56,648 nucleotides of DNA from an uncultured Opitutia bacterium (GTDB taxonomy: Bacteria > Verrucomicrobiota > Verrucomicrobiia > Opitutales > Coraliomargaritaceae), in NCBI GenBank assembly GCA_937136395.1, contig CAKZOI010000049.1:1-56648 (forward strand). Direction: 5' to 3'. The notes beneath the pieces were generated by a model. It had not been told where the DNA came from. It ran no database searches and was given only the letters and a program-made list of their open reading frames with translations. A program made the position numbers and the translations under genes. Numbering within the stretch: position 1 is the first letter of the stretch; the number at the start of each line of letters is the position of its first letter. Shown piece after piece: positions 36,601-44,650 of the stretch.

Positions 36601-38265
36601 CTAAGAGTTTGAGCCAGGTAAATTCTGTGCATTCTCACGAAGGATTGCACTAAGCTGTATGAGTAGGCTTTCTCTATCTGGAGTGAAGATAAACAGATCG
36701 CTGCCTAGTTTTCGGTAGGCTTCATGGAGTAATTCCATTTGCGGGCGACGCATTTGAAGTAGGCGAGTGAGCAGTCTGTTGAGGTCTTCTGTGTTGCCTA
36801 AAGTGAGTTCAACTCGAATTAATTCAGATAGAATCATTTGATTCGTGGATGCTCTTTGGTAGGCAGCGTTTAGCACCTTCCTAGCTTGCTGTGGCCGATC
36901 TATTCTATTGAAGCGACGAGCCACTGCTAGATAGGTCTGTGGTGGGTTCCTCGCTTCGTCTAAAAAGTCCTGGAGGTAGATCTCTCCCAGGTCTGGGCGG
37001 TTTATGCCGTAAGATGCAACAGCTCGTAAGCTATTAAAAATCGCCCATCTGCGCGTCAACCATTCTGGTCGCTCCTTGAGAAGTTCTTCTGAGAATTCGA
37101 GTGCTCCGTTGTAGTCCTTGCTAACTAAATGAGCTTCGATGAGCAGTAGTGCAAAGGCTTCAATACTAAATTCATTCTCCAGTGCTTCCTCGTAGGTTCT
37201 CCGGGCCAGTTTAACATTGCCACTGTCGGCAGCAAAGTTTGCGAGTGCTTGTAACGCATCTAAGTCTTCATTAAATTGCTGAAGCATACGTTGGGTTTCG
37301 CGGAGTTCCCGTTCGGTTTCGCCTGATTTATTGTAAATGTAAAGGAGTTCTATTCGAGGTGCAGGCCTTAATGGATCTGCTACGTTTCTAAGAATCGCGT
37401 ATCTGCGGGCTTCATCGGTCTCACCCAGTTCTCGGTGATATCGACTTAATAGCATCAAGAGTGATTCTGAGTTGGGGAATTTACTTATAGATTCACTTAG
37501 TTTGCTGATTGCGGAGCGTTGATTGCCTCGATCCCAGCTAATTTGAGCTGATAATAGTAGTCCTTCGATGTTTTCAATTAGATTAAAAGTAAGTAGATAA
37601 TCGTCTGCGCGATCGTAATTGCCCCTCAAGTAGTTTGCATTTGCAGCTCCAAATGCGAGTGTTTTGTTGATATCAGTTTGTTCAGCGCCCTCAGGTAAAA
37701 ATTTATCCGCAATGCCTTGAATGTCGGCATCCATTTGGTGTCGTAATAATACGCGCAAAGTGGCTCTTAGATAGTCTAAGTCTTCAATTCCACCTAAGTC
37801 TAAGCCTTTTTTTAGGAGGTCTGCGGCAATGTCAGTGCGTTTGAGTGCTAGTTCATAGAATTCGGCTAGGACTTTACGACCTTCAAGATTGCTGGGAGAT
37901 CGAGTGACTCCGAGCCTTAAGAGGCGCAGCGCGTCGCGATAGTTCGCTTGCTCGAGTTCTTGGAGTCCTGTTTTGATATGAAAGTCCCCCATTTCTTTTC
38001 GATGTGCATCCATCCTGAATGGCAAGCCGATCATTCCAGTGAAGGTGACTTCATCAAAATCTTTCTTATATTTAAAAAAGAAGAACAATAATGCTGCAAC
38101 CGCAAGCCAAGCACTGACGAAAAGCACTAAAAAACTGGTCATCACTCGGCCCCATTTGATTGAGATTTCAATCTTTCCATCTATGCCCTTTCGCTGCGTG
38201 GCGAAGCCTAGAAGTATAGTCTTTTCTCTAGTGATTGGGTTTCTTGTTCGATTCTCGTTTTTCAT
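36601..38265 (-). CDS. Membrane-anchored TPR-repeat protein of the exopolysaccharide locus
   Basis: From ATG 38263-38265 this gives 554 residues: a basic N-terminus, one membrane helix (about 41-64), then a long array of tetratricopeptide-like helix pairs to the end (for example NYRDALRLLRLGVTRSPSNLEG, ETDEARRYAILRNVADP, NVKLARRTYEEALEN). The array probably lies in the periplasm and makes protein contacts. It is divergent from the beta-barrel/Wza/Wzc genes, with a 198-nt shared upstream region, and similar TPR proteins often accompany exosortase-linked polysaccharide loci. An upstream frame to 38370 exists but is not conserved. Confidence 0.75.
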   Translation of the reverse strand: MKNENRTRNPITREKTILLGFATQRKGIDGKIEISIKWGRVMTSFLVLFVSAWLAVAALLFFFFKYKKDFDEVTFTGMIGLPFRMDAHRKEMGDFHIKTGLQELEQANYRDALRLLRLGVTRSPSNLEGRKVLAEFYELALKRTDIAADLLKKGLDLGGIEDLDYLRATLRVLLRHQMDADIQGIADKFLPEGAEQTDINKTLAFGAANANYLRGNYDRADDYLLTFNLIENIEGLLLSAQISWDRGNQRSAISKLSESISKFPNSESLLMLLSRYHRELGETDEARRYAILRNVADPLRPAPRIELLYIYNKSGETERELRETQRMLQQFNEDLDALQALANFAADSGNVKLARRTYEEALENEFSIEAFALLLIEAHLVSKDYNGALEFSEELLKERPEWLTRRWAIFNSLRAVASYGINRPDLGEIYLQDFLDEARNPPQTYLAVARRFNRIDRPQQARKVLNAAYQRASTNQMILSELIRVELTLGNTEDLNRLLTRLLQMRRPQMELLHEAYRKLGSDLFIFTPDRESLLIQLSAILRENAQNLPGSNS

Positions 38266-38395
38266 TGCCTGCGGTTTAGATAAAATAGTTGTTACTATAG
38301 TGCTGATGCATTGTGAGCGTTTCGCCAAGCTCAAATCAATGACTCTTTCTGATTGCAGTTTACGGAACACGCCCTAGCTTAGGCGTAAAATAATT

Positions 38396-38463: not shown

Positions 38464-39699
38464 ATGAATATTAAAAAAACTTCTCTACTTTCTCTCGGCA
38501 GCGCCCTTATTGGAGCTGCTATCTTTCCTAGCGCGACGCATGCAGCTCCATTGGTATCAGTTGGTGACAATGTTGACATCTTTTTCAACGGCTCCTCAAG
38601 TCTACGCTGGACCTCCAATGTCTTTCGGGATGAAAATAATGAGCAAGACGATCTCATTTGGAGTGTAACTCCAGGCTTCGATATTAATGTCGGGCGAGGC
38701 CTCTCGAATGCGGACCTTAGTATTATTACGCGCTATGATATTGTTCGCTACCAGGACTTGGATCAGCTCGATACGGAATTGTTTCATATCAAAGCAGTGG
38801 GCTCTTATCAGTCCAGCCGTTTGGATCTAAACGCTTCTATTGGTTTTGATGAAGTGAAAAGTTCGACTGGTGATGTTAACGTTCAAGACTTAATTGAGTG
38901 GAATGACTTCTCGGCAAGACTTGATGCTGAGTATAGCATATCTCCTAAGCTAAGTATTGGCTCTGGGGTAAACTATAAAGATCGCGAATATCAGACATAC
39001 GAAGAGTATTTCGCGGATCTTGAAACGATTACGGTGCCACTGGATGTTTTCTATGAGTTAACTCCGAAGGTAGATCTGAGCTTAGGATATGCTTATACGA
39101 AAACTGAAGTCGGTGAGACGAATTCACCTACCGGTTTTAGATATGTTAGTGACTACGAAACTGAGTCTCACTTCTTTAATGTTGGTGCTAGAGGTAACTT
39201 ATTGCCGAAACTGTCAGGCTTTTTCAAGGTAGGCTATCGCGTCAGAGATGCAGACGACTCAACAATTCAACCACTAGGTCTAGATGGTTTACCCAGTGGG
39301 GCGCCATTTTCAACAAACAGAGACTCGACTGGAATGCTAGGATTAGACGCTAACTTCACTTGGACAGCGACGCCGAAAATTACAGCTAGGTTGGACTTGT
39401 CGCGTGATTTTGGAGTCGGAGGTGAGGGCACAACTACTGAAAATTCACGGATTGGAACATCTGTTAACTATTCAATCGACACCAATTGGTCTGCGACTGC
39501 GAATTTAGCTTATACCCTGCATGAGTATGATGGTAATCGCGAAGATCATCAATACAACTTAGGCGCTCGTCTTAGTTATGTTCCAAATCAGTATTGGCGC
39601 TTCAGTGGCGGTTATAATTATATTACAAATGACTCAAATGTGGATGATCGTGGCTATGAAAACCACATGTTAGATCTTTCTGTTAATCTCCGCTATTAA
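38464..39699 (+). CDS. Outer-membrane beta-barrel protein of the polysaccharide export locus
   Basis: A 411-residue outer-membrane protein. A signal peptide covers residues 1-27 (ATHA|APLVS). The rest is a regular alternation of amphipathic strands with aromatic girdles, ending in LDLSVNLRY, with a terminal aromatic residue as required for BAM insertion. It resembles the EpsL/outer_beta-barrel proteins found with exosortase and capsule-type export genes. Position directly before the Wza- and Wzc-like genes supports a role as an export pore or its partner. The exact substrate is unknown. Confidence 0.8.
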   Translation: MNIKKTSLLSLGSALIGAAIFPSATHAAPLVSVGDNVDIFFNGSSSLRWTSNVFRDENNEQDDLIWSVTPGFDINVGRGLSNADLSIITRYDIVRYQDLDQLDTELFHIKAVGSYQSSRLDLNASIGFDEVKSSTGDVNVQDLIEWNDFSARLDAEYSISPKLSIGSGVNYKDREYQTYEEYFADLETITVPLDVFYELTPKVDLSLGYAYTKTEVGETNSPTGFRYVSDYETESHFFNVGARGNLLPKLSGFFKVGYRVRDADDSTIQPLGLDGLPSGAPFSTNRDSTGMLGLDANFTWTATPKITARLDLSRDFGVGGEGTTTENSRIGTSVNYSIDTNWSATANLAYTLHEYDGNREDHQYNLGARLSYVPNQYWRFSGGYNYITNDSNVDDRGYENHMLDLSVNLRY

Positions 39700-39759: not shown

Positions 39760-40434
39760 ATGAAACAAATTGTTACTTTAATCATCGTTCAATTGCTTGG
39801 TGTCACTGGAGTCTATCTGAATGCTCAGGATAGCTCATCAACTTCATTCGGTGGTGATTCTGGGGCAAGTTCTTCGAGGAGTGGGGCATCAAGTGCATCT
39901 GGTCAATCTGGTGTTGGTATGATTGTCGGTGAAAATTATATTTTGAAACCTTCCGATATTATCAGTGTTGAAGTATATCAAGAGGAAGATCTGAATAAGC
40001 AAGTTCGTGTCGAAGGGGATGGGTCTGTAGCTCTGTCATTAGTTGGTAAAGTTAAAGTAGCGGGTATGACTGTTGCAGAGGCTCAGTCGCTCATTACCGA
40101 TTTGTATAATCGAGACTACCTAGTGGATCCGCAAATTTCACTTATCGTGACTTCATTTTCAGCCAAAGTGGTGCGGATCCTAGGCTCTGTGAATCGCGCT
40201 GGAGTTGTGCAAATTCCGCCTGATCGTGATTTAACCCTTACAGAGGCTATTGCTGGTGTGAATGGTGTGAGTCGTCTTGGAAACCCGAAATCGATTACAA
40301 TTAAACGGGTAGATGGCAATGGACGAGCTCGTCAAATGGAGGTGAACTTCACTCGAATTCTTACCGATCCGAACGTGAAAGATATTATTTTGAAAGAGGG
40401 CGACACGATATGGGTGCCTGAGCGAGTCTTTTAA
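39760..40434 (+). CDS. Polysaccharide export protein (Wza-like, Poly_export plus SLBB)
   Basis: A periplasmic or outer-membrane export channel component, 224 residues. The signal peptide is residues 1-22 (LNA|Q), without a lipobox Cys, so it is not a classical Wza lipoprotein. A Ser/Gly-rich linker (24-50) follows, then the Poly_export domain (LKPSDIISVEVYQEEDLNKQVRVEGDGSV), then an SLBB domain (VRILGSVNRAGVVQIPPDRDLTLTEAI). It is much shorter than Wza (about 379), which has extra SLBB and membrane domains, so the beta-barrel encoded upstream may supply the outer-membrane pore. It is followed 20 nt later by the tyrosine kinase gene. Confidence 0.88.
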   Translation: MKQIVTLIIVQLLGVTGVYLNAQDSSSTSFGGDSGASSSRSGASSASGQSGVGMIVGENYILKPSDIISVEVYQEEDLNKQVRVEGDGSVALSLVGKVKVAGMTVAEAQSLITDLYNRDYLVDPQISLIVTSFSAKVVRILGSVNRAGVVQIPPDRDLTLTEAIAGVNGVSRLGNPKSITIKRVDGNGRARQMEVNFTRILTDPNVKDIILKEGDTIWVPERVF

Positions 40435-40453: not shown

Positions 40454-42739
40454 ATGAAAAACGATTACGTAAGGGGTGCACCGGACCCTAATTCTGGAGG
40501 CTATGGCGGAGGTTATGGTTATGGTGGTGGTTATGGTTATGGCTATGGTGCTGGCGGCTACGGTGGCGGCGGTTATGAAGGTGGAGGCGGTTCAGGAGCG
40601 CCGCAGAGATCTTTCATGGACTATTTCTTGATGTTTCGTGAACGCATTTGGTATCTGATTGTAGCGTTCTTCATAATTTTTTCTGGTTCGATTCTATATA
40701 CTTTCAATAAAACGAAGGTTTATACAGCAGTCGCCCAGGTGCAGTTACTTCGTGATGACCCTTCCGCTTTGGGAGCCGGTATCGAAATGGAGCCTAATCA
40801 AATACGCACCTCAGAGGATTTAAATACGCAGATTAGTGTGCTGGAAAGTGCATCTATCATTCAAGGCGTTGAGCAGCGGATTCAGGATGATGTTCGTGAG
40901 CGCTTTATGGCACCTTATGCTGACGCATTAAGTTTGTCTGGCCCACTTTCACCGGTTGAAGTCTTGGCGCGTAATCGTAAAGTCATGCCACGTCGAATGA
41001 GCTTGATGATCAATATTGCTTATACGCACCCTGATCCAATCATCGCTGCTGATGTCGCTAATTTATTTGCTAAAGAATTTATCGATTACAACTTGAAGTT
41101 GAACATCGACGGTTCAATGAAGGCTGTTGAAGATCTTCGCATACGCGCGGATCAACAGAAAGAACGTGTTGAAGAATTGGACATGAAACTGGCGGATTAT
41201 CGTGAGCAGAATGATGCCGTTTCGTTAGACAGCCAAGAGAACATCGCTCGTGAACAATTAGCGAGTTTGAATGAAATGAAATTGTCCGCTAAGAGTCTAT
41301 ATGATTCAGTTGAGACTAAATGGAACTTGGTTGAAACTTATAAGCGAGAAGGAAAAAAGTTGTGGGAGTTGTCATTTGTTGCAGAACAAACACGAGTGTC
41401 CGCACTTCTTGCCAGAATCAGTGAAACTAAAATAACAATTTCTTCCTTAAGTAAGCGATACCGTGAAAAGCATCCTGTTATGATTCAACTATTGCAGACT
41501 TTGCAAGAGTCTGAAGTTGAATTGGAGTCCGCAGTGCAGAACTCAGTCGATAAGTTGGCCGCGATTTTTGCTGAGTCCAATAGCAACTATGAAACGGCGA
41601 GTCAAAGGCTTGCTGAAAAAGAACAGGAGTTGATTGAACTGAGTAGGACACGTGTGGAATACAATTCACTGTTACGTGATTTAGAGGTTCAACAAAGCTT
41701 CTTCATGGCGCTGACCTCTCGTATGACTCAAGAGAAGGCGCAAGTGAATTTAAAAAATCCCAATGCACGTATTGTAGACGAAGCGTTTCCGCCTATTAAA
41801 CATTCCTCTCCCAATGTGGTCATGAATTTGGCTGCTGGCTTATTTGGTGGTGTTGCAGTAGGTATGGGGCTGGTTTTCTTGGTTGCATTCTTGGATGATC
41901 GTGTGAAGAGCGCTTTCGATATTGAAGGCACGATTGGACTACCTATGCTAGGAATTGTCCCACGGATTAAGAAGCTCGATTCGAATTCAAAGGCGCAGGC
42001 AGTTGCATCGAATGTAGATCGACATGTGACTGAAACATTTCGTTCGATTCATTCTGCATTAAAGCTCAATGATGAGAGTAAGAATGCGAAGGTAATTGTG
42101 ACAACCAGTACTGTTCCTGGTGAGGGTAAATCGTTTGTGAGCTCTAATCTTGCGCTAACTTTTGCCAATCACGGTGACAAGACTTTATTGTTAGATGGTG
42201 ACCTTCGTTTGCCTAATGTGGCCCGTTCGTTGCAACTCGAGAATGACTTTGGGTTGCTGGATCATATGGAAAAAGATGTGGCCGTAGACGAAGTCATTAT
42301 TAAAGAGGTGTATCCGAATTTGGATGTGCTTCCTTCAGGCGGTACATCTAAAAACCCTACAGAGATTCTTAATAGCGCAAAGTTTGAAGCAATGTTTGCT
42401 GATCTTAGAGACCGTTACGATCGCATAGTAGTTGATTCACCGCCACTTGCAGCTGTGAGTGATGCTTTGAACCTATTGCCACTAGCTGACGGTGTGCTTT
42501 ACGTGATTAAATTTAATACGGTTAAACGCAAAACTGCTGTTATGAATGTGCGCCGTCTTTGGGAGTCGAATACTCCTGTTTTTGGAGCCATCTTGAATAA
42601 CATTACTAGCACATTGTCTAGTTACTACTATTCAAACTATTCAGATAAGACATACCAAGACTATTATATTCATAACGACGAGGAGTTTGAAGAAGAGTTG
42701 GCTGGCTCTGTTGAGCCAACACTGGAAACTAAGTCTTAG
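40454..42739 (+). CDS. Wzc-like polysaccharide co-polymerase and tyrosine autokinase with Gly/Tyr-rich N-terminus
   Basis: Controls polymer length and export, with cycles of tyrosine phosphorylation. In order: a Gly/Tyr-rich segment (about 12-47), TM1 (about 65-85), a Wzz-type periplasmic part with long coiled coils (about 90-450), TM2 (about 455-480), then a BY-kinase domain with Walker A VPGEGKS (about 553), Walker A' LLLDGDLRLPN and Walker B RIVVDSPP. The C-terminus carries a tyrosine cluster (YYYSNYSD, then TYQDYY) as in Wzc. Length of 761 is slightly above the usual 720. The Gly/Tyr-rich cytoplasmic leader is not part of the usual family. A strong terminator follows. Confidence 0.9.
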   Translation: MKNDYVRGAPDPNSGGYGGGYGYGGGYGYGYGAGGYGGGGYEGGGGSGAPQRSFMDYFLMFRERIWYLIVAFFIIFSGSILYTFNKTKVYTAVAQVQLLRDDPSALGAGIEMEPNQIRTSEDLNTQISVLESASIIQGVEQRIQDDVRERFMAPYADALSLSGPLSPVEVLARNRKVMPRRMSLMINIAYTHPDPIIAADVANLFAKEFIDYNLKLNIDGSMKAVEDLRIRADQQKERVEELDMKLADYREQNDAVSLDSQENIAREQLASLNEMKLSAKSLYDSVETKWNLVETYKREGKKLWELSFVAEQTRVSALLARISETKITISSLSKRYREKHPVMIQLLQTLQESEVELESAVQNSVDKLAAIFAESNSNYETASQRLAEKEQELIELSRTRVEYNSLLRDLEVQQSFFMALTSRMTQEKAQVNLKNPNARIVDEAFPPIKHSSPNVVMNLAAGLFGGVAVGMGLVFLVAFLDDRVKSAFDIEGTIGLPMLGIVPRIKKLDSNSKAQAVASNVDRHVTETFRSIHSALKLNDESKNAKVIVTTSTVPGEGKSFVSSNLALTFANHGDKTLLLDGDLRLPNVARSLQLENDFGLLDHMEKDVAVDEVIIKEVYPNLDVLPSGGTSKNPTEILNSAKFEAMFADLRDRYDRIVVDSPPLAAVSDALNLLPLADGVLYVIKFNTVKRKTAVMNVRRLWESNTPVFGAILNNITSTLSSYYYSNYSDKTYQDYYIHNDEEFEEELAGSVEPTLETKS

Positions 42740-42795: not shown

Positions 42796-43527
42796 TTAAA
42801 GATATCTTTGTATGTCGGGGATTTTGTGGGCACGGTGCCCGTTCTCTAAGCGCTCAATATATTTGTCGGGCTTGGTGTCGTCGGGTTGCTCGCCCTCTTC
42901 CAGTCCGTCTTCTTCGATTGGAATTAATTCATCAAAGTATAGAGACAATCGTCGAGCTTCTGGGATTAAAACTTCCGCTGGGTTGGGAATGCGCCCCTTT
43001 TTGACTAAAATGAACCGTGCTGGTGTGCATTGCTTTTTGTAATATAACTCAAAATCTTTTATCCACTTATTGTCGTTCTTCTCGCGGCGATTGAGTAGGA
43101 TCACATCTGAAAAGTGAATGCAGGCATCATACCAACTAAGGGCGGCTGGTTTTTCCTGCAATAGGGCGCAATTGACGACAGTGAAAACCCTGCCAAGTTC
43201 ACAATTGTTGTGGTCGATCCATGATTTTAGCGCTTCAGCTATGTCGGCTGGATCGGAAGTGCCAGATGCTAGGAAAATGATAACCTCAGGCGCCGCGGAA
43301 ATGGTGCCATGTGCGACTTTAGCTTTGTCTAGCGTCCAATTTACTTTGGTCACTCTTTCGATGGCCGCGATTTTTTCATCCCAGGTAGAGGGTGTCTCGC
43401 CCTTTGGGAGAAAGAGTAGGACTTCTGTGCTCTTTTCAATACCACTATCTATTAAGTCGTAGAGGACTTCTCGACGCCCAGAATCGGGTGCTCCAAACAC
43501 GATGTAAACTAGAGGTTTTTCTGGCAT
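42796..43527 (-). CDS. CobW/P47K-like GTPase-fold protein with degenerate P-loop
   Basis: From ATG 43525-43527 this gives 243 residues. The N-terminal strand and loop read IVFGAPDSGRREVL, like a Walker A GxxxxGK[ST] but with Arg-Arg instead of Lys-Ser/Thr. The later pattern FTVVNCALL ... YDACIHFSDVILLNRREKND resembles the CobW/P47K order (TVVDA ... QIAxADxIVLNKxD). The C-terminus is acidic, then Arg/His-rich. Nucleotide binding is doubtful with this P-loop. It lies 22 nt downstream of aroC on the same strand and is probably co-transcribed. Function is unknown; the family call is moderate. Confidence 0.5.
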   Translation of the reverse strand: MPEKPLVYIVFGAPDSGRREVLYDLIDSGIEKSTEVLLFLPKGETPSTWDEKIAAIERVTKVNWTLDKAKVAHGTISAAPEVIIFLASGTSDPADIAEALKSWIDHNNCELGRVFTVVNCALLQEKPAALSWYDACIHFSDVILLNRREKNDNKWIKDFELYYKKQCTPARFILVKKGRIPNPAEVLIPEARRLSLYFDELIPIEEDGLEEGEQPDDTKPDKYIERLENGHRAHKIPDIQRYL

Positions 43528-43549
43528 TGAATAAATCGAATGGCTCCGG

Positions 43550-44650
43550 TCATTCAGCTTCGAACGCAAAGCTGCTACATTGTGCTTCCTGGCGCATCCA
43601 ATGGTCGATCAATACCAATGATGCCATAGATTCGACGATCGGAACCGCCCTCGGGACTACGCATGGGTCATGGCGTCCTCTGCCCATCAGTTTCGTTTCG
43701 TTGCCATCTTTGTCTACGGTATGTTGATTCTGGATAATTGTGGCCGTTGGCTTGAAAGCTACGCGAAACACCAGTTCTTCGCCGTTGCTGATGCCGCCTT
43801 GAACCCCACCTGAGCGGTTGCTGCTGGTGCCTATTTTACCATCTTTGTTGATAAATGTATCGTTGTGTTCAGACCCGCACATGGTTGAGCCCTTGAAACC
43901 ACTGCCGATTTCAAACCCTTTGGTTGCCGGTATCGAGAGCATGGCCTTGGCAAGATCTGCTTCTAAGCGGTCGAACACTGGTGTGCCGAGTCCGACTGGT
44001 AGGTTTCGAATACGACATTCGATAATGCCGCCAACTGAATCACCTTCGCTGCGTATTGCGCGTATGCGCTCAACCATTTTTGTCGCAGTTTCTGGGTGAG
44101 GACAACGCACCGGGCTGGCTTCGATTTGTTCTAGTGTTGGAAAACGATCTAGCGGAGGCATTTCAATATCATGCACTTGGGTGATATATGCGCGCGTTTC
44201 GATCTCTGCTGCCAGTGAGAGTATTTTTTTTGCCACTGCTCCTGCAGCGACTCTGCCGATCGTTTCTCGGGCTGATGAGCGTCCGCCGCCTTCGTGGTTG
44301 CGTATGCCAAATTTTGTTTGATAGGTGAAGTCCGCATGAGAGGGGCGGAACTTATCTTTCATCTCAGAATAAGCCGACGGACGTTGATCTCCATTCGGGA
44401 CGTAGATGGCGATTGGCGTGCCGAGTGTGAGGCCATCATAGACGCCAGATACGATCTTAGCGGTATCGCTTTCTTTGCGCGGAGTGGTGATATCACTTTG
44501 GCCCGGGCGGCGGCGATCGAGTTCGAATTGTATATCTTCTTCGCTGAGTGGTAAGCGTGGTGGACAGCCGTCGATGACGACGCCTATACCACCACCGTGA
44601 CTCTCCCCCCAAGTGGAGATGCGAAATAATGTGCCAAAAGAGTTACCCAT
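43550..44650 (-). CDS. aroC: Chorismate synthase
   Basis: Converts EPSP to chorismate with reduced FMN, the last common step of aromatic amino acid synthesis. The N-terminal signature [17 protein letters not shown], the central [30 protein letters not shown] and the C-terminal [14 protein letters not shown] are all present. ATG 44648-44650 ([10 protein letters not shown]) gives 366 residues. An ATG five codons upstream (44665) is also possible. It heads a short minus-strand transcript with the CobW-like gene. Confidence 0.97.

Follow-up and report, generated by a model that had tools for sequence, protein, structure and literature searches.

The tyrosine kinase of the Wzc type encoded in the window (the whole 56,648-nt stretch of DNA analysed) almost certainly begins with a real, conserved arm composed mainly of Gly and Tyr. 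We propose that this is a Tyr sticker arm, which would be cohesive when unphosphorylated and loosened when the kinase phosphorylates it, a reading to which a probability of roughly 0.4 is assigned. The presence of the arm, its start, conservation, predicted disorder, Tyr-selectivity, spacing and one main clade were computed; to these the proposal adds phosphorylation, cohesion and an effect on polymer length, which we infer.

The kinase reading frame, whose product starts with MKNDYVRGAPDPNSGGYGGGYGYGGGYGYGYGAGGYGGGGYEGGGGSGAPQRS, matches the GNVR and AAA_31 families above the Pfam cut-offs and Wzz just under it (24.4 versus 25.5 bits), and reaches 145 bits with the NCBIfam BY-kinase domain model TIGR01007 (cut-off 108). 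The protein was initially annotated as Wzc-like, and these matches bear this out. The NCBIfam models for Wzc, Etk, EpsF, EpsG, and XrtA kinase all score below their own cut-offs on this frame, and the NCBI Wzc equivalog PRK11519 gives 112.5 bits against a cut-off of 1068. By these scores the protein is of the same kind as Wzc and not an orthologue of the enterobacterial Wzc. It joins co-polymerase and BY-kinase in one chain, with two flanking transmembrane segments, the Walker residues, and a Tyr-rich tail, as in PCP-2a proteins of the Wzc type, and the C-terminal Tyr cluster is kept among orthologues. The features of its sequence that were tested place it among the Wzc-type kinases, for which autophosphorylation and an octamer are predicted. 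The AlphaFold2 model (mean pLDDT 75) has its best PDB matches in Wzc chains; the whole chain superposes poorly (TM about 0.25) and the kinase domain alone superposes well. Given a pTM of 0.37, no distances were taken from the model.

The BY-kinase domain is cytoplasmic. Since two hydrophobic stretches lie between the N-terminus and this domain, the arm is placed in the cytoplasm ahead of the first transmembrane segment, as was initially suggested. The further suggestion that it lies next to the kinase domain can hold in space at most, as in sequence the arm precedes Walker A by about 500 residues.

Table 1. Coordinates of the kinase gene, of the features of its product, and of the two preceding genes in the window.
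Feature	Residues	Position	Strand	Evidence
Beta-barrel (BBP2_2) protein, first gene of apparent operon		38464..39699	+	Pfam BBP2_2
Wza-like outer-membrane export protein, upstream operon partner		39760..40434	+	Poly_export, SLBB_2
Wzc-type polysaccharide co-polymerase/BY-kinase gene with arm	761 aa	40454..42739	+	Pfam and NCBIfam matches; AlphaFold2 model, best PDB matches Wzc chains
Conserved lead peptide MKNDYVRGAPDPNS	1-14	40454..40495	+	Kept in close relatives, codon change mostly synonymous
Gly/Tyr-rich disordered arm (23 Gly, 8 Tyr)	15-49	40496..40600	+	Composition; pLDDT; present in order-level orthologues
Juxtamembrane helix, DY...RER, in the place of E. coli Wzc helix alpha1	54-63	40613..40642	+	Model helix; Y57, R62, R64, W66 invariant (21 rows)
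TM1	65-85	40646..40708	+	Hydropathy (about 65-83), model helix 65-85
TM2	462-480	41837..41893	+	Hydropathy, inside model helix 455-483
Walker A region, TTSTVPGEGKS	550-560	42101..42133	+	S552, P555, E557, G558, K559 invariant (21 aligned orthologues)
Walker A', DGDLR	581-585	42194..42208	+	D581, D583, L584, R585 invariant (21 aligned orthologues)
Walker B, RIVVDSPP	657-664	42422..42445	+	D661, P663, P664 invariant (21 aligned orthologues)
C-terminal tyrosine tail	724-738	42623..42667	+	Aligned Tyr columns 724-738 in 77 kinases

The composition of the arm is extreme. Gly or Tyr occupies 31 of the 35 positions from residue 15 to 49, and the best 35-residue window in 2000 shuffles of the same protein holds 13 (mean 8.7), so that the description of a Gly/Tyr-rich segment of about 35 residues in the initial annotation is confirmed. 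Among all stop-to-stop frames of the window that reach 100 aa, the next best 35-residue stretch has 31% Gly plus Tyr. Residues 1-53 have a pLDDT under 50, that is, they are predicted to be disordered. Judged by pLDDT and by Tyr spacing against shuffles, the features of a sticker-and-spacer sequence are present, namely predicted disorder, evenly spaced aromatics, and a background of small residues.

A start downstream of the segment, which would leave these codons outside the protein, had been named at the outset as one of two findings that would refute the observation. Translation would then begin at Met55 or Met60, where ATG codons do stand in frame, and a Shine-Dalgarno sequence before 40454 is not obvious by eye. 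The relatives contradict this reading: four of them (L012, L018, L020, and L021) have no ATG, GTG, or TTG from the first Met to TM1, three others (L022, L030, and L035) have a stop one codon 5′ of the first Met, and the lead peptide is kept with synonymous drift. A downstream start was rejected on these grounds and is given next to no credence. In two genomes of one genus, G000 and G001, 18 of the aligned codons before PQRS are identical, 27 differ synonymously, and 2 differ in the amino acid, besides 6 gap positions. This synonymous excess, together with the starts of the relatives, indicates that the segment is coding sequence under constraint at the protein level. The same drift bears on passive expansion of a GGY-TAY DNA repeat devoid of function. 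The arms of close relatives differ in length by GY units and the spacing is regular, as slippage would produce, but synonymous changes have accumulated in codons that still specify Gly and Tyr, and the arm survives in families at 33-50% identity. DNA slippage was rejected as the main cause because of this drift under a retained Gly/Tyr protein, and a functionless repeat is considered very improbable.

The distribution of the arm was surveyed by homology within the phylum. Some match to the kinase occurs in 48 of 57 relatives, own genome included. The class search covered 384 genomes, 74 of them in the order (own included), and 57 of these 74 have an orthologue above 700 bits or, in G015, a split equivalent; the remaining 17 are genomes with no match above 700 bits among the two candidates per genome that were scored in full. 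The N-termini of all 57 order-level orthologues were read, and a Tyr/Gly-rich arm is present in every one (57/57, the arm of G015 being partly out of frame), which answers the call for a survey of homologues and disposes of the concern that the segment might be absent from all relatives. The weakest arms in the order are those of L167, with YGYGAY inside a Pro-rich stretch and a core of 6 residues, and of L153. Nine paralogues of order genomes (L045-L049, L181, and L183-L185) lack the arm. In G015 (L038 1-6314; the same gene in L115) some 24 codons of the arm are out of frame before the frame is restored, and a further break splits the gene near residue 450; either a sequencing error or genuine decay may be responsible.

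In the class outside the order the arm was found in 1 of the 17 kinases fetched (G060, L179), and a marginal arm was seen in L132, among the named records of the class outside the order. Outside the class a Tyr/Gly/Pro-rich N-terminus occurs in 4 of 20 kinases fetched (L231-L234, L231 barely so), a fraction which is not a rate because these kinases were chosen partly for an early-starting match. The arm is thus not the trait of a single protein, being spread across the orthologues of the order, nor a trait of all such kinases in the phylum, as 16 of 17 (class outside the order) and 16 of 20 (outside the class) have no arm by the rule used; both candidates were rejected. This also qualifies the initial statement that the segment is not part of the usual Wzc, which stands insofar as the segment is absent from descriptions of E. 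coli Wzc in the portion of PMC8285477 available, and falls insofar as it implied a peculiarity of one protein, the arm being a trait of the orthologue order-wide.

The rule asks for at least 4 Tyr and 20-22% Gly plus Tyr before the RERxW motif and was set after the sequences had been seen. The related-locus set consists of the best 80 of 552 relatives, and many of its loci duplicate genes of the G-numbered loci. Sequences with frameshifts or masked bases (L038, L115, L028, and L050), without an alignable N-terminus, duplicated, or shorter than 600 residues were left out before counting. Of 178 rows with an N-terminus, 159 were unique and full and 109 remained after reduction at 80% identity. 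The arm is present in 78/109 by the 22% threshold and in 79/109 by the 20% threshold, which adds L078, whose start is doubtful.

In a tree built from the sequence that follows the arm (109 sequences below 80% identity), 77 kinases with an arm and 3 without fall into one clade with an SH-aLRT of 100, and the arm label changes 5 times on the tree versus 26.5 in shuffles. A second tree, built with a mixture model and 19 rows from outside the class on a thinned set without L046-L049 and L235, keeps the clade (30 rows after thinning) with a support of 99. Both trees were made by a quick method, with no bootstrap, and contain long branches, L046 with L047 and L049 with L179 in the first, and L230 in the second. 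In the second tree L231-L234 sit apart from the clade on a long branch, separated from it by armless paralogues, and their N-termini may represent a second gain, or an old one that the intervening lineages lost. The armless members of the clade are the sisters L096 and L098, and L121, whose own sister L111 keeps the arm. We infer two losses (L096 with L098; L121), so that the arm would be dispensable in some lineages. The tail Tyr number 5, 4, and 5 in L096, L098, and L121, against a median of 8 in the arm-bearing kinases; this is no test, since equally low counts occur in 10 of the 77 kinases with an arm, and the median is 9 among armless kinases outside the clade.

Tyr and Phe were counted on the 77 kinases of the clade, and spacing and composition on 78, including the outside rows L132 and L179. 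An arm carries a median of 8 Tyr (range 3-19), a number that tracks arm length (Spearman 0.89). The aromatics of the arm core amount to 665 Tyr, 4 Phe, and 0 Trp, so that Phe plus Trp make up 4/669; they make up 4/549 at the Tyr columns of the C-terminal tail and 193/984 at the other Tyr columns, those of the body. Even when the whole segment before the helix is taken, doubtful upstream extensions included, 17 Phe/Trp face 665 Tyr. By these counts the tyrosines of the arm are handled as those of the tail, with Phe and Trp nearly excluded, and tail Tyr are the kind of residue phosphorylated in E. coli Wzc. Adjacent Tyr are avoided in the arm, being about five times rarer than expected (34 observed versus 164.5 +/- 9.2 shuffled), and spacings of 2 to 4 are favoured; the tail, in contrast, has YYY runs. 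GYG is the commonest Tyr context, with 334 triplets, and no longer motif is conserved across families, the length and sequence of the arm drifting while Tyr stays. The arms are near neutral (median net charge -1) and poor in Arg (2.2% of arm residues). Such a pattern suggests selection for many evenly spaced Tyr in a Gly background, and the arm Tyr are probably required for function.

Two functions had been put forward initially, namely extra phosphorylation sites and self-association. Both are compatible with the evidence, and Phe avoidance combined with even Tyr spacing fits a combination of the two. The avoidance of Phe can be explained by sticker chemistry alone or by phosphorylation alone. 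According to the part of PMC12677899 available, Tyr is reported to be the stronger sticker of the two when condensates are hydrated, and Phe the stronger when the surroundings are apolar. Phosphorylation of the arm by its own kinase is given even odds, and so, separately, is a role of the arm in promoting self-association; the two acting together are a tentative expectation, somewhat doubtful at present.

The genomic setting is that of a small export operon. In 43 of 44 loci the kinase is preceded by a Wza match, the 44th being cut by a contig end, and the beta-barrel gene is present in 35 of 44, some of the others being cut by contig ends. A TPR-repeat protein gene at 36601-38370, divergent from the operon, adjoins it in 19 of 44 loci, some of which end early. 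The Wza-like protein has a signal peptide region without Cys followed by a Ser/Gly-rich linker, which is similar in near relatives (L057-L069) and mostly absent in more distant ones (L070 on). On the other side, 42796-43569 encodes a protein with a weak, sub-cut-off CobW match beside aroC, a pair which recurs in L057 and, farther off in the tree, in L076.

The genome itself has one match to a Wzc protein query (a profile search counts 2, the second weaker), one initiating transferase match, four Wzy_C matches, and three LMW phosphatase matches. One contig (C70), not that of the operon, holds the transferase and a Wzy_C match with about 21 kb between them, and the phosphatase matches likewise lie off the operon's contig; the export module thus stands apart from these genes of glycan synthesis. 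Within 52 genomes of the order, the pattern G-[YF]-G-[YF]-G-x-G-[YF]-G has 16 matches in 9 genomes. Ten of these are all-Tyr and fall without exception within the kinase, to which the all-Tyr pattern is therefore confined in those genomes. The 6 Phe-containing matches, at four loci, are a poor control for Phe, as three of these loci gave ORFs (188, 102, and 112 aa) that look mostly spurious and the fourth (L207) gave none.

This setting is relevant to the possibility that the arm binds a specific partner through its GYG repeats, and brings that partner to the site of export, self-association being beside the point; the Wzy polymerase, a flippase, a glycosyltransferase, a phosphatase, and a positioning protein are candidates. 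The operon is small and the transferase and a Wzy_C match are encoded on another contig, so that recruitment may be needed, and short repeated GYG units are what most often surrounds a Tyr. Partner binding is nonetheless held to be unlikely: arm length varies widely and nothing beyond the triplet itself is conserved across families, and a search of the genome for a second GYGYG protein gave, outside the arm, three matches, isolated strings in other proteins. A simpler role would be that of an entropic spacer or brush which keeps rings or subunits apart, the Tyr being incidental. Predicted disorder, Gly richness, and low sequence conservation are all consistent with it, but a spacer has no need of Tyr, let alone of a median of 8 per arm almost never exchanged for Phe or Trp, and this role is judged distinctly unlikely.

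The proposed sticker arm loosened by the kinase draws the cytoplasmic side, the octamer, and the assembly cycle from knowledge of the Wzc family. E. coli Wzc (a PCP-2a BY-kinase; PDB 7nhr and 9r68) shares the helix before the membrane, TM1, the periplasmic co-polymerase, TM2, the BY-kinase, and the Tyr tail; it provides the best PDB matches by fold, is among the matches by sequence, and has Wza encoded next door. It differs in having about 16 residues before alpha1 and a modelled cytoplasmic N-terminus of 17-30, and a Gly/Tyr arm is not described for it in the available part of PMC8285477. According to the same part of that paper, the helix before the membrane makes packing contact with the one that forms the base of the Tyr tail. 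Dephosphorylated E. coli Wzc forms octamers which engage Wza, and autophosphorylation dissociates the octamers, as stated in the available parts of PMC11986026 and PMC12881504.

An octameric ring would have eight arms, each with about 8-10 Tyr, arranged around its juxtamembrane helices and around the base of its C-terminal tyrosine tails. Each arm would be attached directly to the alpha1-equivalent helix (54-63 in the model), and a disordered chain of about 50 residues could, judging from its length, extend to the ring's kinase sites. Tyr set among Gly is expected to be cohesive, and unphosphorylated arms may help Wzc subunits or rings to cohere. Phosphorylation of the arms by the kinase of the ring would charge the near-neutral stickers, which would then repel. 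The arm would thereby add a second layer to the known cycle of Wzc, which assembles in the dephosphorylated state and dissociates once autophosphorylated. It is from helix attachment, chain reach, Tyr cohesion, and phosphate charge that the loosening by the kinase is proposed. A bolder version, which we regard as possible but rather improbable, makes the arm a second, N-terminal phosphotyrosine platform in the form of a Gly-Tyr sticker, alongside the C-terminal tail, with a kinase that dissolves its own membrane clusters through phosphorylation of its own stickers, order-wide and possibly gained repeatedly in the phylum.

Partial parallels exist in other systems. The kinase may work like Rv1747, an ABC exporter of Mycobacterium tuberculosis, which likewise exports envelope material and has a cytoplasmic disordered region with phosphorylation-dependent clustering, as described in the available part of PMC9312465. 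It is an unrelated protein served by a separate kinase, PknF, and its phosphorylation promotes condensation, whereas here the kinase is on the same chain and loosening is proposed. In plants, AtGRP2 has a Gly-rich, Tyr-bearing disordered region whose phase behaviour has been studied (PMC13261584, in the part available). Domains of the AtGRP2 type occur on RNA-binding proteins; the arm described here sits on a bacterial membrane kinase and is poor in Arg. FUS-type domains are further eukaryotic parallels. Among the matches listed from the open-access literature, none describes a Gly/Tyr-rich N-terminus on a Wzc-type kinase, which is not proof of absence.

In the available parts of the literature cited here, the regulation of Wzc is described through the C-terminal tyrosine tail. 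The arm and the retention of its Tyr suggest a second, switchable control handle on the enzyme, which governs export of the sugar coat. If this is true, an order-wide N-terminal Tyr arm would be an added input to the assembly cycle which sets the amount and length of surface polysaccharide. It would also offer a natural, small, nearly Phe-free Tyr sticker beside its own kinase, in which the phospho-switching of bacterial protein clusters would be directly testable.
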